Source: Tamilnaduibacter salinus
GTDB lineage: Bacteria > Pseudomonadota > Gammaproteobacteria > Pseudomonadales > Oleiphilaceae
DNA: 64,000 nucleotides
NCBI RefSeq assembly: GCF_003096655.1
Contig: NZ_QEKQ01000006.1
Coordinates: 1-64,000 of the forward strand
Reading direction: 5' to 3'
Under the pieces are notes generated by a model. It saw nothing but the letters and a program-made list of their open reading frames with translations, was not told the origin of the DNA and did not search any database. Position numbers and translations under genes: made by a program. This document shows positions 3,662-16,925 of this stretch, piece by piece (the stretch's first letter is position 1; the number at the start of each line of letters is the position of its first letter).

Positions 3662-5365
3662 TCAGAACAGGTGGTAGCGTTGGGCCAGCGGCAGTTCCGT
3701 GGCCGGTTCACAGGTGAGCAGTTCGCCGTCGGCGTGGACCTCGTAGGTCTGCGGGTCGACGCTCAGCGTCGGGCAGGCGCTGTTGTGCTTGAGGTCTTTC
3801 TTGCGCACCTGCCGGACGTTCTTGCACGCCACCAGCCGGCTGCTCAGGCCCAGCTCCTCACCGATGTGGGCGTCCAGCGCCGCCTGGCTGACGAAGGTCG
3901 CGCGGGTGGCGGCGGAGGCCTTGCCGTAGGCGCCGAACATGGGCCGGTAGTGGACCGGCTGGGGCGTGGGGATGGAGGCGTTCGGGTCGCCCATGGGCGC
4001 GGCGGCGATCATGCCGGCCTTGAGAATCAGCGCGGGTTTGACGCCGAAGAACGCCGGGTCCCAGAGCACCAGATCGGCCATCTTGCCGACTTCCACCGAG
4101 CCCACTTCGTGCCCGATGCCGTGGGTGATGGCCGGGTTGATGGTGTACTTGGCGATGTAGCGCTTCGCACGCAGGTTGTCCGCGCCGATCTGTTCGTCTT
4201 CGGGCAGCAGGCCGAGCTGGACCTTCATCTTGTGGGCGGTCTGCCAGGTGCGGCAGACGACCTCGCCGACCCGGCCCATGGCCTGGGAGTCCGAGGCGAT
4301 CATGGAGATCACGCCCATGTCCTGCAGAATGTCCTCGGCGGCAATGGTCTCCCGGCGGATGCGCGAGTCGGCGAAGGCGACGTCTTCGGGAATTTTCGGG
4401 TCCAGGTGGTGGCAGACCATGAGCATGTCCAGATGCTCGTCGATGGTGTTCACCGTGTAGGGCCGCGTCGGGTTGGTGGAGGACGGCAGCACATAGTCCT
4501 TCTCGCAGGCGGTCATGATGTCCGGCGCGTGGCCGCCGCCCGCCCCTTCCGTGTGGTAGGTGTGGATGCAGCGTTCCTTGAAGGCCGCCAGCGTGTCCTC
4601 CACAAAGCCGGACTCGTTGAGCGTGTCCGTGTGGATGGCGATCTGCACGTCGAAGCGGTCGGCGACGGTCAGGGCGTTGTCGATTGAGGCCGGGGTGGTG
4701 CCCCAGTCCTCATGGAGCTTGAGGCCCATCGCTCCGGCGCGGATCTGCTGCTCCAGCGGTTCGGCCAGCGAGGCGTTGCCCTTGCCCAGAAAGCCGATGT
4801 TCATGGGCATCTCATCCACGGCTTGCAGCATGCGGCTGATGTGCCAGGTGCCGGGGGTGCAGGTGGTGGCGTTGGTGCCGGTGGCCGGGCCGGTGCCACC
4901 GCCAAGCATGGTGGTGATGCCGCTCATCAGCGCTTCATCCACCAGTTGCGGGCAGACGAAGTGGATGTGGGCGTCCAGCGCGCCGGCGGTGAGGATCTTG
5001 CCCTCACCGGCGATGATCTCGGTGCCCGGACCGATGACGATCTCCACATCCGGCTGGGTGTCCGGGTTGCCCGCCTTGCCGATGGCGGCGATGCGTCCGT
5101 TCTGCAGGCCGACGTCGGCTTTGACGATGCCCCACCAGTCGAGGATCAGGGCGTTGGTGATGACGGTGTCCATCACCGTGTCGTCGGCGCGCTGGCTCTG
5201 GCCCATGCCGTCGCGGATGACCTTGCCGCCGCCGAATTTCACTTCATCGCCGTAGTGGGTGGCGTCGCGTTCCACCTCGATCCAGAGTTCGGTGTCGGCC
5301 AGGCGGACCCGGTCGCCGGTGGTGGGGCCGTACATGTCACTGTAGGCGTCGCGGGAGAGCTTCAT
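3662..5365 (-). CDS. ureC: Urease subunit alpha (catalytic)
   Basis: UreC carries the binuclear nickel centre that hydrolyses urea to ammonia and carbamate. The 567-residue protein has the expected ligands: His-Ile-His at 133-135, the lysine to be carbamylated in GLKLHEDWG (Lys216), His245, [10 protein letters not shown] (His271) and the flap-region motif MVCHHLD. Length equals that of bacterial UreC proteins. Its ATG overlaps the ureB stop by four bases (5362-5365), a coupled arrangement. No missing active-site residue was noticed. Confidence 0.98.
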
Positions 5366-12827: not shown

Positions 12828-12849
12828 GACGGGAGAATAGAGAGGCGAC

Positions 12850-12873
12850 GTCGCCGCCGCAGTGGGCGGCGAC
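12850..12873 (-). terminator. Strong hairpin downstream of the exported-protein cluster
   Basis: GTCGCCGCC (12850-12858) pairs perfectly with GGCGGCGAC (12865-12873) around six bases, 20 bases after the stop of the gene ending at 12893. On the minus strand it is followed by GTCGCCTCTCTATTC rather than a clean T-tract, so termination is plausible but not certain. Confidence 0.4.
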
Positions 12874-12892: not shown

Positions 12893-13765
12893 TCAGGGAA
12901 TCGCCGGAATGGTGGCCTCATCATCCAGCTCATTTTCCAGCTTGCCGCCCAGGACGGCACTCTCCTCGCCCGAGGCCTTGTTCAAATGACCGCCAACGAC
13001 AACGGATTTGTTTCCTCGTGCCTCGTTGAAGTAACCGCCGACAACGACCGAGCGTTCACCCTCCGCCGTGCCGAAACGCCCGCCTGAGACGTGGCCATCC
13101 CGGCCCAGTACGGTATTCTGACGCCCCCCGCTGATCGTGCCATTCTCACCTCGCACGATATTAAGCGCCCCAAGGCTGATCGCGTTTTTTCTGGTGGTTG
13201 CGTTCTTGTACCCGACCGTCAGGCCGCCATTCCCACTGTAGGCATTCTCCCACCCGACCACGATGTTGTGCGAACCGCTCCGGTGGTCAGCCGACCAGAC
13301 TTCGCCCGCACCCTCGCAGGCCGTCCGGTCATCGTACTGTCCGTCCGAACAGACTTCGGGCACGGTGGAGGTCGCTTTGACTCGGGCACCACCGTACCCA
13401 ACAATCAGGTTACCGAGCCCGTTCGTCTGGTTGTTTTCCTGAGCGTTTTTCCCCGCTCCATCGGTCAGTTGGATGTTCACGCCCTCAAACACGATCCGCT
13501 GCTCATTCGGCTGAGCCGCATCCGCCTGCACCGTCACATGCTCGTTCATGTCCCGCAGGTTGGATGTCTGCTGCTCCAGCTGCTCGATTCGAGCCATCGC
13601 GTCGTTCAAGGCCGTGCGCAGGGCTTCAAAGTTTTCGTTCACTTCCTCGGCCCGCGCGGGTGTCCCCGACTGGAACTCGTTGGGAACGTTGACCTCGGCG
13701 TGACTCGCCACCGGCAGCAGGGTTGCCACCGTGATCGCGGCGGTGAAGGTTTTGATCGGTGTCAT
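12893..13765 (-). CDS. Exported protein with trimeric-autotransporter-head-like repeats
   Basis: A 290-residue protein with a signal peptide (residues 1-23, ending ASHA). The motif NEFQSGTPARAEEVNENFEAL (about 27-47) is common in phage tail-fibre-like and surface proteins. A coiled-coil segment follows (about 45-75). From about residue 180 there are 14-15-residue repeats such as GERSVVVGGYFNEARGNKS and GHLNKASGEESAVLGG, resembling YadA/Hia head repeats. No C-terminal beta-barrel anchor is present, so it is not a complete trimeric autotransporter. A start at 13765 is chosen for its AAAGGAG ribosome site. Last of three co-directional exported-protein genes; function unknown. Confidence 0.75.
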   Translation of the reverse strand: MTPIKTFTAAITVATLLPVASHAEVNVPNEFQSGTPARAEEVNENFEALRTALNDAMARIEQLEQQTSNLRDMNEHVTVQADAAQPNEQRIVFEGVNIQLTDGAGKNAQENNQTNGLGNLIVGYGGARVKATSTVPEVCSDGQYDDRTACEGAGEVWSADHRSGSHNIVVGWENAYSGNGGLTVGYKNATTRKNAISLGALNIVRGENGTISGGRQNTVLGRDGHVSGGRFGTAEGERSVVVGGYFNEARGNKSVVVGGHLNKASGEESAVLGGKLENELDDEATIPAIP

Positions 13766-13802
13766 GGTGATTGCTCCTTTCAGACCACATTGGACGGGGC
13801 GT

Positions 13803-13970
13803 CTACTGCCACTCGCCCTCATTCCATTTCATTTCGTTCCACTTGCCGGCTGCGGCGGGCTCGACAGAAGCGTCGCTGCCTCCGCCACCGCCACCACAGG
13901 CCGCCAGACCAAGGATGAACAGGGTCGCCAGGACCAGCAGGCCCCAGCGCCGTAGAAAAGAGGACTGCAT
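13803..13970 (-). CDS. Very small lipoprotein (55 residues)
   Basis: From the ATG at 13970 the frame gives a basic start (MQSSFLRRWG), a hydrophobic stretch and the lipobox LAAC at residues 22-25. A polyglycine linker follows, then a short tryptophan-rich tail containing WNEMKWNEGEWQ, and a TAG stop at 13803. Mature length is only 31 residues. The gene lies between two other exported-protein genes (gaps of 86 and 37 bases), and the clear lipobox argues that it is real. Function unknown; the repeated W-N-E pattern may be a binding tail. Confidence 0.7.
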   Translation of the reverse strand: MQSSFLRRWGLLVLATLFILGLAACGGGGGGSDASVEPAAAGKWNEMKWNEGEWQ

Positions 13971-14056
13971 AGGGGATACTCCTTTTCACAGGCGGGCTGA
14001 TCAGACCGCGACCGTCAGCCCCGCCCGTCACGGCAGCGCTGACGGCCGGAATCGCT

Positions 14057-15712
14057 TCAGGGCTGTTCCACTAGAATGCTGAGCTCCAGACTGGTGAGGT
14101 AATACGGGTCGCTCTCAAAAGTGGCGCGGTAACCGGTCCCGTTGAAGACCCGGACGACGTAGGTGCCGGCCGAGAGCGATCGCTCCAATGTGGTCGAGGT
14201 GCTGTCCGTGCCCGGACCACCCGTGAAGTCAAACCGTTCCTGATCGTTGAAGAACGTGATGCTGCCGTTGTTATCCTGATCTTCGAACAGTGCAATACGC
14301 ATGGAGCCCGAGCCCAGGTTGCTGTAGCCATCGACCGTGATGCGGTAGGTGCCATCAGTCGGCGCCTGGAACCGATAGTAACTGTAAGCCGGGAAGTCTG
14401 AACCAGAACCCACGTAGTTCCCGATCTTGCCGGCGAACCGCTCGCCCAGCGTCAGCGGCACCGCCTCGTCCAGTGACGGGCCGCCGTCGTTGAGCGGAAC
14501 GAGCCCGACGCGCAGCTCAGACGGACCGCCGTTGTCCGGAGTCGGTGCGTAGTAGACCTCGAGGCAGGTTCTCTCGTCATCATTGAGCCGGTTCGTCAGA
14601 CCCTCCACGACTGAGTCGCCGGTCGCACTGCCCTGCTCGGCCGACGACTCGCACTGCTCGCGGGTATCCTGATCATCAAAGTTGTAGAGCGTCCAGTTAT
14701 TGCCGCCAAAGGCGTTGCCAGACGACTTGGAGATTTCAATGCGGTAGTGACCGGCCGTCTCAAAAACCACGGCAGCGGCCGTGCGGGCCGTGTCAGACTG
14801 GCCCGGGGCGCCGCGATTGAGATCGGCCAGGGGGTCGTCGCTGGTACAGAGGATCTGGCGGTTGGACACGTTCAGACGGGTCTGCTCGCAGGCGCCGGGA
14901 ATCCAGCCGATGCCCGAGGCATCGCCGTTGGGCGGTTCGGTGTCGAACTCGGACTGGAGGTTGTCCCGGGCATCCTGAAGCAGCTGCGGATCCTGAGCCG
15001 CCGTTGTCACGGACTGATAGGCCGACTGGGCGTTGCCATTGATCTGTCCGTCGTCGGCAAAATCATCCCGCAGGCCGTCGAGATCAGTCTGGCTCAGGCC
15101 GGATTGCAGCACAGCGGCCGAGAACAGCAACAAACTGACATTGTCGCTCTCCGCTGACCCGGACTGTCCGTCCAAAAGATCCAGTTCGGTGGCCGGCGTG
15201 CTGGTGCCGACAATGGACTGCCATTCCTGCTCCGCCTGCGATCGGGCATCCGCAAAAGACTGGCCATTGCCCATCAGCGTGCGGACGCGCTGGGACTGGA
15301 TATGTGTGAAGAGGTTGATGTTGGCCTCACTGGCCTGGCTGGCCGCGATGACCGCGTCCAGATAGCGACTCTCACTGGAGAGACTGCCCTGCACTTCGTC
15401 GAAGAACGTGCCTTCAATGCGCAGCCGGGTGGCGCCACTCCATTCGAGGCCATCGAAGGCGTAGTTGCCCCGGCTGTCAGTGGTCGTCGTGGCAGCGGAC
15501 TGGGTGCCAATCGCGCCATCGGCCTGCAGGTTCCGGGCGGTCACATTGGCGCCCTGCTGGAACGGCCCCTTTTGGGACGTCCCCTGAACCGATGCGGCCT
15601 GCGAATCGCCCGGATCAACGCCACCACCGCCATCACTGCCACTATCCGCACACCCGGCCAGAGCCACCACCGCAGTGGACATCATCACGCATCGCCACGT
15701 CCATCCCGTCAT
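14057..15712 (-). CDS. Large lipoprotein with C-terminal PPC-like domain, unknown function
   Basis: A 551-residue protein with lipobox LAGC at residues 18-21, followed by a Ser/Asp/Gly-rich linker. An N-terminal part (about 40-110) resembles a carboxypeptidase-regulatory-like or Big beta-sandwich (TDSRGNYAFDGL). A helical middle (about 115-260) follows. The C-terminal region (about 410-550) has SYYRFQAPTDGTYRITVDGY and SAGTYVVRVFNGTGY, typical of bacterial pre-peptidase C-terminal (PPC) domains, which bind or stabilise in secreted enzymes. No protease domain is present. Start at 15712 has GGGAG nearby. Head gene of the three-gene exported cluster. Confidence 0.75.
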   Translation of the reverse strand: MTGWTWRCVMMSTAVVALAGCADSGSDGGGGVDPGDSQAASVQGTSQKGPFQQGANVTARNLQADGAIGTQSAATTTTDSRGNYAFDGLEWSGATRLRIEGTFFDEVQGSLSSESRYLDAVIAASQASEANINLFTHIQSQRVRTLMGNGQSFADARSQAEQEWQSIVGTSTPATELDLLDGQSGSAESDNVSLLLFSAAVLQSGLSQTDLDGLRDDFADDGQINGNAQSAYQSVTTAAQDPQLLQDARDNLQSEFDTEPPNGDASGIGWIPGACEQTRLNVSNRQILCTSDDPLADLNRGAPGQSDTARTAAAVVFETAGHYRIEISKSSGNAFGGNNWTLYNFDDQDTREQCESSAEQGSATGDSVVEGLTNRLNDDERTCLEVYYAPTPDNGGPSELRVGLVPLNDGGPSLDEAVPLTLGERFAGKIGNYVGSGSDFPAYSYYRFQAPTDGTYRITVDGYSNLGSGSMRIALFEDQDNNGSITFFNDQERFDFTGGPGTDSTSTTLERSLSAGTYVVRVFNGTGYRATFESDPYYLTSLELSILVEQP

Positions 15713-15854: not shown

Positions 15855-16925
15855 TCACATGGGGTCACTGCTCCAGACATAGCGATTCATCAAGTCGCTC
15901 TTGCCGGTGACGCCAAGCTTGTCGTAGAGGTTGTTGACGTGGGTGATGACCGAGTTGCGGGAGATCGCCCAGCGTTCGGCCATGTCATGGAAAGAGGCGC
16001 CTTCGGCCAGCGCGCAGGCCGCCTGCCTCTGGCGTTTCGAGAGGTCCGCATCAAGGATCCGGCGGAACATGCAAAGACCGGCGGGGATGCGGCGGTGGCT
16101 GGTGAGGCCGATCACGCCAGAGTCAAGGAAGCGGTCGAGGGTGAGACGGAATGAGCCCCAGACACTGTCGACCATCATTGACCGCGGCGGGTCTTTCAGC
16201 GTCCTGGCCGCCTGCAACAGCTCCGGGGGAATCCGGAAGTCGAAATTCGCCGGTGTCGTGCCCGGCTCGGTCTGATTCTGCATGGCCAGATGCAGGCGGA
16301 AGGCACGGGTGGCCCGGATCAGGCCGCCGTCGGTGTCCAGCTCCGCCATCCCCGGAGCCACCTCATCCACGCCGGGCACCGCCTCCCGACTCCGGCATTG
16401 CAGGAGCCGGCCGATCAGATCGGCGCCGACATCCAGCGTTTTCAGCTCCGCGTTCGTGTAGGGAGGCGATCCGCCAGGGCGAAAGACCACCAGTCCCCCC
16501 AACGCGGCATCGCCGTGGCTCACCACGCATCGCGCCATGTCGTCGATTCCCCAGGGCGCGAGCATCTGCTGATAGACGTCGGTCCGGCGGAAGGCCTCAC
16601 GGGACATCTGGATGATATCCGTCAGACGCCGGGAGCGGGTCTGACGACGCATCTCCTGGCGGAATGTGGCGCCCGACAAGCTCTCCTCACGGGCGGTGTT
16701 TCCAAACCCCTCAGCGTAGGCTGCCAGCCCCTTTTCAATGCCGATGAGCCGGGAGAAACCACCCGCCACCTCGCCCGTTCCGGACGCCCAGATGAGCATG
16801 CTGCCCATGGTCTGGGGAATGGCGTCCTCCAGCAGATCAAGCGCGTCGGGCACAGCCGCCGCCGGTGCCATGGCGAGCCCGGTCAGTACCTCCAGCCTGT
16901 CACGAATCGCCTTTTCCATTGCCAA
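15855..16925 (-). CDS. LuxR-type transcriptional regulator
   Basis: A 356-residue protein whose last ~65 residues form a LuxR/GerE helix-turn-helix: LSKRQRQAACALAEGASFHDMAERWAISRNSVITHVNNLYDKLGV. The N-terminal ~280 residues have no obvious receiver domain (no phosphoacceptor Asp/Lys set) and look like a large sensory region, possibly GAF-like. It begins four bases after fadH stops, so it is co-transcribed with fadH and probably senses a fatty-acid-related signal; that role is inference. Confidence 0.8.
   Translation of the reverse strand: MAMEKAIRDRLEVLTGLAMAPAAAVPDALDLLEDAIPQTMGSMLIWASGTGEVAGGFSRLIGIEKGLAAYAEGFGNTAREESLSGATFRQEMRRQTRSRRLTDIIQMSREAFRRTDVYQQMLAPWGIDDMARCVVSHGDAALGGLVVFRPGGSPPYTNAELKTLDVGADLIGRLLQCRSREAVPGVDEVAPGMAELDTDGGLIRATRAFRLHLAMQNQTEPGTTPANFDFRIPPELLQAARTLKDPPRSMMVDSVWGSFRLTLDRFLDSGVIGLTSHRRIPAGLCMFRRILDADLSKRQRQAACALAEGASFHDMAERWAISRNSVITHVNNLYDKLGVTGKSDLMNRYVWSSDPM

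Follow-up and report, generated by a model that had tools for sequence, protein, structure and literature searches.

How phage-like fibers are attached to the surface of bacterial cells is the question raised by a small gene cluster of Tamilnaduibacter salinus, for which genomics names a candidate socket. The cluster lies on contig NZ_QEKQ01000006.1 (coordinates refer to the window, the whole 64,000-nucleotide stretch of this contig that was analyzed), where a LuxR-type regulator, a 551-residue PPC-like lipoprotein, a 55-residue lipoprotein, and a head-repeat protein are encoded in that order of transcription. The initial annotation had described the last three as consecutive, co-directional genes, and the three open reading frames (ORFs) do follow one another, on the minus strand like the regulator gene. 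While that annotation treated all three as one exported module, the conserved unit is a two-gene pair, in which the 55-residue lipoprotein, with a tryptophan triad at its C-terminal end, accompanies the head-repeat protein, which carries an N-terminal domain, here called VN. Judging from gene linkage and sequence, the triad is probably a docking peptide for the VN domain, with the lipoprotein serving as the membrane anchor in trans for a phage-like fiber.

The 55-residue lipoprotein (13803..13970, minus strand) is predicted to carry a signal peptide with the lipobox LAAC at Cys25, followed by a Gly/Ser/Ala linker and a C-terminal end, KWNEMKWNEGEWQ, that includes the Trp triad WNEMKWNEGEW (13809..13841, minus strand). 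The role proposed for the triad, that of a docking peptide, derives from motif scans and pairing counts. The triad follows the pattern W-x4-W-x4-W, mostly in the form W[DN]xMxW[DN]xGxW. Sequence comparisons indicate that this short ORF exceeds chance: relatives occupy the equivalent place in two other genera, and a DNA pattern for W[DN]xMxW[DN]xGxW is found in 9 of 369 genomes of the class versus 0 for the reversed control. These two relatives, in Halospina denitrificans (G008) and a Marinobacter metagenome-assembled genome (MAG; G015), lie directly upstream of relatives of the head-repeat protein, a search for which matched 6 of 58 genomes, the window's own included. The final residues of the two tiny lipoproteins are EWDEMQWDEGKWQ and QWDQMHWDQGRWG, respectively. 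The 55-residue query also gave many chance matches to the signal peptides of other lipoproteins, and only these two, with matching context, were used. A looser pattern, W-x4-W-x4-W followed by one residue and a stop codon, matched 385 of 398 genomes and was useless.

Removal of 7 duplicates from 76 lipoprotein/VN pairs left 69. In 61 of these the chain ends exactly one residue after the last Trp, the linker between the lipid Cys and the triad is mostly 10–28 residues long, and a lipobox is recognized in 49. In Escherichia coli, lipoprotein sorting uses the residue after the lipid Cys. Since this residue is never Asp among the 49 lipoproteins, the outer membrane is the destination indicated by that rule. 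Variants such as CSWNESDWDECDWG and FWDVTRWDSMVWN retain the Trp spacing alone and widen the range of the motif. Additionally, a sub-type of the triad tail (L287, L291, L298, L302), of which CVWGESEWDDCDWS is an example, has Cys in place of Met/Gly and is possibly disulfide-bonded. Proteins of about 130 residues that contain the W motif and an extra domain are encoded directly behind a VN gene in Marinicella and relatives (L061, L065, L085, L086, L121, and others), and no lipobox was recognized in proteins of this type.

The second member of the pair (12893..13765, minus strand) is a 290-residue secreted fiber protein with a predicted signal peptide, a VN domain, a coiled coil, and a YadA-like head, in which no membrane anchor was found. 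Its preferred start is the ATG at 13765 rather than that at 13822 (309 residues), and the sequence AAAGGAG is located just upstream of 13765. The VN domain is an unnamed N-terminal domain with the pattern (I/V)PxxFx5AxAxxVNxNF, behind which a variable C-terminal region follows. The motif of the window protein, VPNEFQSGTPARAEEVNENF (13628..13687, minus strand), matches this pattern exactly and marks the proposed docking domain. In the window protein this domain is not named by Pfam, NCBIfam, or PHROG models, and a comparison of the VN part with Protein Data Bank (PDB) chains gave nothing convincing, the best match being a coiled-coil protein (E = 0.047). In an AlphaFold2 (AF2) model, VN residues 21–60 have block means of 78–92 on the predicted local distance difference test (pLDDT), and a long helix or coiled coil is predicted for residues 39–74 (13544..13651, minus strand). 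The putative head, at approximately residues 165–272 (12950..13273, minus strand), resembles the UspA1/YadA beta-roll in a phmmer match to 3pr7 (E = 1.1e-12), in agreement with the earlier description of a signal-peptide protein with autotransporter-head repeats. The head region is modeled as strands with block pLDDT mostly 82–87, while the model of the whole fiber has a mean pLDDT of 69.6 and a predicted template modeling score of 0.49, residues 101–160 being poor. Foldseek returned nothing from the PDB with E ≤ 0.001, and VIA-align listed generic beta-helix and other repeat rows only (Z ≤ 6.8), the YadA-like head not being among them. Because the fold searches gave no such head, its assignment rests on sequence.

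The pairing of the two genes was probed by scanning genome contigs with W[DN]xMxW[DN]xGxW, which identified 106 stretches. The motif is at the C-terminus of an ORF in 72 of them, near the N-terminus in 25, and internal in 1, the other 8 having no ORF with a start codon. A hidden Markov model (HMM) of the partner N-terminal domain detected a VN gene within 2.5 kb of 64 of the 72 triad-ending ORFs, and 63 of these partners are on the same strand (48 downstream and 15 upstream), with 1 on the opposite strand. The eight misses comprise two loci at contig ends (L129, L134), two real misses (L046, L144), one that looks like chance (L122), and three in which the partners look, by eye, truncated or diverged (L139, L146, L070). 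This HMM was trained partly on the same loci; the independent directions are provided by counts that begin from VN, in bacteria and in phages. The VN-only pattern (I/V)PxxFx5AxAxxVNxNF occurs in 17 of the 369 genomes, with none for the reversed control. Of the 25 loci found in this way, the window being one, 19 have an ORF of at most 200 residues that ends in W-x4-W-x4-W, as compared with 0, 0, 1, 1, and 0 loci for Trp spacings of 3, 4, 6, 7, and 8. The triad and VN genes are linked, the linkage is specific to the spacing of the triad, and the pairing of Trp-triad lipoprotein and VN fiber is strongly supported.

According to the titles of 80 of the 106 stretches, paired loci are found in Gamma- and Betaproteobacteria, Myxococcales, Nitrospirae, Aquificales, Campylobacteraceae, Helicobacteraceae, Planctomycetota, and Candidatus Desantisbacteria. 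Additional pairs, from Nitrospirae, Desulfobacteraceae, and Verrucomicrobia, have the motif immediately after the signal peptide rather than at the C-terminus. Such an alternative arrangement of the pair is seen at four Nitrospirae/Magnetobacterium loci (L044 991-2535, L052 5431-6009, L055 96-1700, and L082 1982-2977), in which the W motif directly follows the signal peptide, long Pro-Thr repeats come next in three, and a VN-like gene adjoins. At L039/L118 (UBA6915), two VN genes surround a triad lipoprotein gene on the opposite strand, and one of the VN proteins has a fibrinogen-like C-terminal region.

The large lipoprotein proved to be a lineage-specific companion of this pair. All three genes are found together in one further genome, that of Halospina denitrificans, where the cluster is likewise co-directional and includes a relative of the PPC-like lipoprotein (36% identity) as well as one of the LuxR-type regulator. 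Within flanks of at most about 8 kb, the PPC-like lipoprotein and the regulator join only 2 of the 69 pairs, those of the window and Halospina, which rules out the three-gene set as a conserved unit. For the tiny lipoprotein, the suggestion that it holds the head-repeat protein at a membrane fits the very strong, phylum-wide pairing of the two genes.

The VN-only pattern also matches at least 120 stretches of viral contigs from IMG/VR. Most of the phage VN proteins lack a signal peptide and begin within a few residues of the motif, and VN forms the N-terminus of tail fibers. Among the phage VN proteins are a tail collar protein (PF07484, 4e-18), an Mtd-like protein (PF21916, 5.5e-18), one with a tail-fiber match (phrog_4492, 7.7e-57), and a beta-helix protein. 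Neighborhood counts were made at 104 phage loci, after VN proteins in which the motif is preceded by more than 12 residues (a signal peptide or a long N-terminus) and genes identical to another over their first 60 residues had been dropped. Of the 85 distinct genes directly upstream, 34 contain W-x4-W-x4-W, as compared with 0 of the 66 directly downstream and 1 of 641 other genes on the same strand (Fisher 6.9e-34, a value that overstates independence because 32 of the 34 fall in one similarity cluster). Spacings of 2–4 and 6–9 give 0 or 1 in the upstream genes. The cluster in question has 63 members with a median length of 537 residues; its tested members match a virion structural PHROG and relatives are annotated as phage stabilization protein, the family being referred to here as the ring protein. 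The other two triad-bearing upstream genes each form a separate cluster. An adjoining VN gene is also present on three contigs that had been identified through the Trp motif (L156, L157, L160). Among annotated phages, the window fiber has a single weak match, in its head region, to an annotated tail fiber (E = 8e-3), a phage VN peptide likewise has a single weak match, and no plasmid was matched.

While VN is constant, the regions behind it are swappable. The 65 partner C-terminal regions form 18 clusters, the biggest of which (30) is the window's head type, one protein family that extends from Gammaproteobacteria to Aquificales (21 sequences). Ten partners were scanned, with some of the matches below the Pfam cut-off: Peptidase_S74 was detected in two (E = 9.4e-12 and 1.6e-12), FGE-sulfatase together with Fibritin_C in one, Fibrinogen_C in one, a CBM-like domain in one, beta-roll or UspA1 repeats in three, and only coiled-coil matches in one, and the remaining partner gave nothing at E ≤ 0.01. 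The conserved, phage-related parts of the system are the VN domain and the Trp triad, which were overlooked in the first reading of this locus, and the head repeats are one of several alternative C-terminal regions.

A triad of specific spacing is thus encoded beside a VN N-terminus both in phage tails and in outer-membrane lipoproteins, and the simplest reading is that the triad and the VN domain bind each other. If so, the lipoprotein would be the anchor in trans for a fiber that has no anchor of its own; we infer both binding and anchoring from gene linkage. In the proposed mechanism, the 55-residue lipoprotein would reach the outer membrane after export and lipidation at Cys25, presenting a flexible linker that ends in W-x4-W-x4-W. 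The fiber would be exported via Sec and trimerize through its coiled coil and beta-roll head, placing three VN domains at the membrane-proximal end, where they would bind Trp triads. Contact with the outside would be made by the head or, in other species, by a different C-terminal region. The same docking would hold the tail fibers of many phages on their ring protein, making the docking pair common to bacteria and phages.

Several observations weigh against this proposal. A read-through of the Halospina pair was modeled with AF2 using 61 further aligned rows, and while the VN hook-helix is confident (blocks 92–94, last 88; helix 86–118), the Trp tail of this single-chain model is near pLDDT 56 and docking is not seen on the monomer, a result compatible both with docking on a trimer and with its absence. 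The outer-membrane exit route of the fiber was not found; a SlipAM search was empty, its control likewise going unmatched. The triad is lacking in 51 of the 85 upstream phage genes, and nearly all of the phage matches are within the single ring-protein family. In bacteria, no triad protein was found in the examined flank of 6 of the 25 VN loci, some chance triad matches have no VN neighbor, and the pairs counted are not independent events, since some come from related species and some MAGs contribute several loci.

Other roles for the lipoprotein must be weighed. It might function as a secretion pilot or assembly chaperone that binds VN in the periplasm to deliver or fold the fiber, which is then released or attached elsewhere. 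The pairing data suit any dedicated VN-binding function and the lipoprotein is hardly more than a tether and a peptide; however, the triad is also carried by phage ring proteins encoded beside fiber genes, where structural attachment is simpler, and this role is unlikely, if worth serious consideration. It is improbable that the pair instead forms a periplasmic structure, such as a spacer between the outer membrane and the cell wall. Export signals on both proteins and the failure to identify an outer-membrane exit machine are compatible with such a structure, but the C-terminal regions (UspA1-like, FGE-like, fibrinogen-like, S74) are of types that bind receptors, and they vary from one species to another, as would parts that touch the exterior. 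Small lysis lipoproteins that adjoin exported proteins are also known, which brings to mind a toxin/immunity or lysis pair, the lipoprotein either guarding against the larger protein or releasing it. This explanation is very hard to credit, as a constant lipoprotein tail with a changing partner C-terminal region is the reverse of a cognate immunity pair and the lipoprotein has no match to such a family.

Anchoring in trans by a docked triad would have broader implications. There is a slightly better than even chance that the pair represents a widespread new class of diderm surface display, in which a short triad lipoprotein is the universal socket for secreted trimeric fibers with interchangeable tips, and in which socket and plug are the same docking pair that tailed phages use between fiber and tail ring, so that a single 12-residue motif is used by virions and cells alike. 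The pairing of a Trp-triad lipoprotein with a VN fiber is, within the reach of these searches, undescribed: the string EVNANF was not found in any paper searched, nor was anything found on the pair. If the docking is real, the triad would offer a structure-free marker of the fiber-docking site in many phages from the environment. It would also assign a function to a class of lipoproteins, about 50 residues long, that may be lost to length filters, and it might yield a portable tag for anchoring.

The 551-residue lipoprotein (14057..15712, minus strand) has a lipobox-like signal, VALAGC, in line with its earlier designation as a large lipoprotein, while its PPC domain is only a sub-threshold match (PF04151, E = 0.011; 17 bits, where the cut-off is 25.9). 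The top Pfam match of the protein, CarboxypepD_reg (E = 3e-5), is likewise under the cut-off. The LuxR-type regulator (15855..16925, minus strand), with a GerE helix-turn-helix (PF00196, E = 3.2e-8) and a relative of 45% identity inside the Halospina cluster, is a possible regulator of the cluster. The near neighbors examined are a periplasmic binding protein downstream and, upstream, this regulator and an FMN/FAD oxidoreductase; judged on these, the pair is not within a phage structural gene cluster. A weak terminator-like hairpin is present at 12844-12860, but 4 such sites were found versus 3.4 expected, so it proves nothing. Elsewhere in the window, 4933-5219 (plus strand) matches the 5' ureB small RNA family (RF02514, E = 3.6e-25), which may stem from conserved urease coding sequence rather than from an RNA. 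In Halospina (L010, 13741-16746), the gene behind the PPC-like lipoprotein encodes a 1001-residue protein that contains repeats of the CSLREAVNSAN type and, toward its C-terminus, a lipobox-like stretch. In the Marinobacter MAG (L009, 14903-16302), each of the two strands stays open across a run of short repeated peptides (TPPRAWGR, NTPTCVGKT) in what looks like a CRISPR array.

Comparison with known systems helps to place the fiber. It shares head repeats and a predicted coiled coil with the trimeric autotransporter adhesins (YadA, UspA1; type Vc). In contrast to these, the order in the window protein is N-domain, coiled coil, and C-terminal head, and the YadA_anchor beta-barrel (PF03895) was not found in the protein by Pfam or in the genome (0 matches, with the control matched in E. 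coli), which rules out type Vc membership; nor did a hidden barrel partner of this type come to light that would undercut the initial interpretation. A lipoprotein gene beside the gene for a head-bearing fiber is also a feature of SadA/SadB, reportedly a trimeric autotransporter with a separate lipoprotein in which SadA has its own barrel anchor.

The closest known system is the mosaic adhesive trimer (MAT) fibers of Bdellovibrio bacteriovorus, which are surface fibers that combine a constant N-domain with varied tips, some of them bearing S74 (PMC10769870). This N-domain is described as beta-rich, about 130 residues long, and placed right after the signal peptide, and the authors state that the surface element it binds awaits identification (PMC10769870). 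The two systems have in common a signal peptide, a constant N-terminal end, variable tips that include S74 and a C-type lectin fold, and a likeness to phage tail fibers, with surface display, predicted for the fiber here, as a further likeness. VN differs from the MAT N-domain so described in being a short hook and helix with a lipoprotein partner encoded next door. The AF2 model of the window protein, with an extended hook and then a helix at 39–74 where a MAT fiber has its beta-rich domain, speaks against MAT membership, and the protein is assigned neither to the MAT fibers nor to the trimeric autotransporters.

The phage VN fiber/ring-protein pairs share the VN motif at the N-terminus of the fiber and W-x4-W-x4-W in the protein of the neighboring gene. 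They differ in that the phage proteins are signal-less and encoded within a structural gene cluster, and in that the triad occupies a loop in a ring protein some 540 residues long rather than the end of a lipoprotein. The candidate socket belongs to a fiber family other than MAT, and it is small enough for testing as a synthetic peptide.

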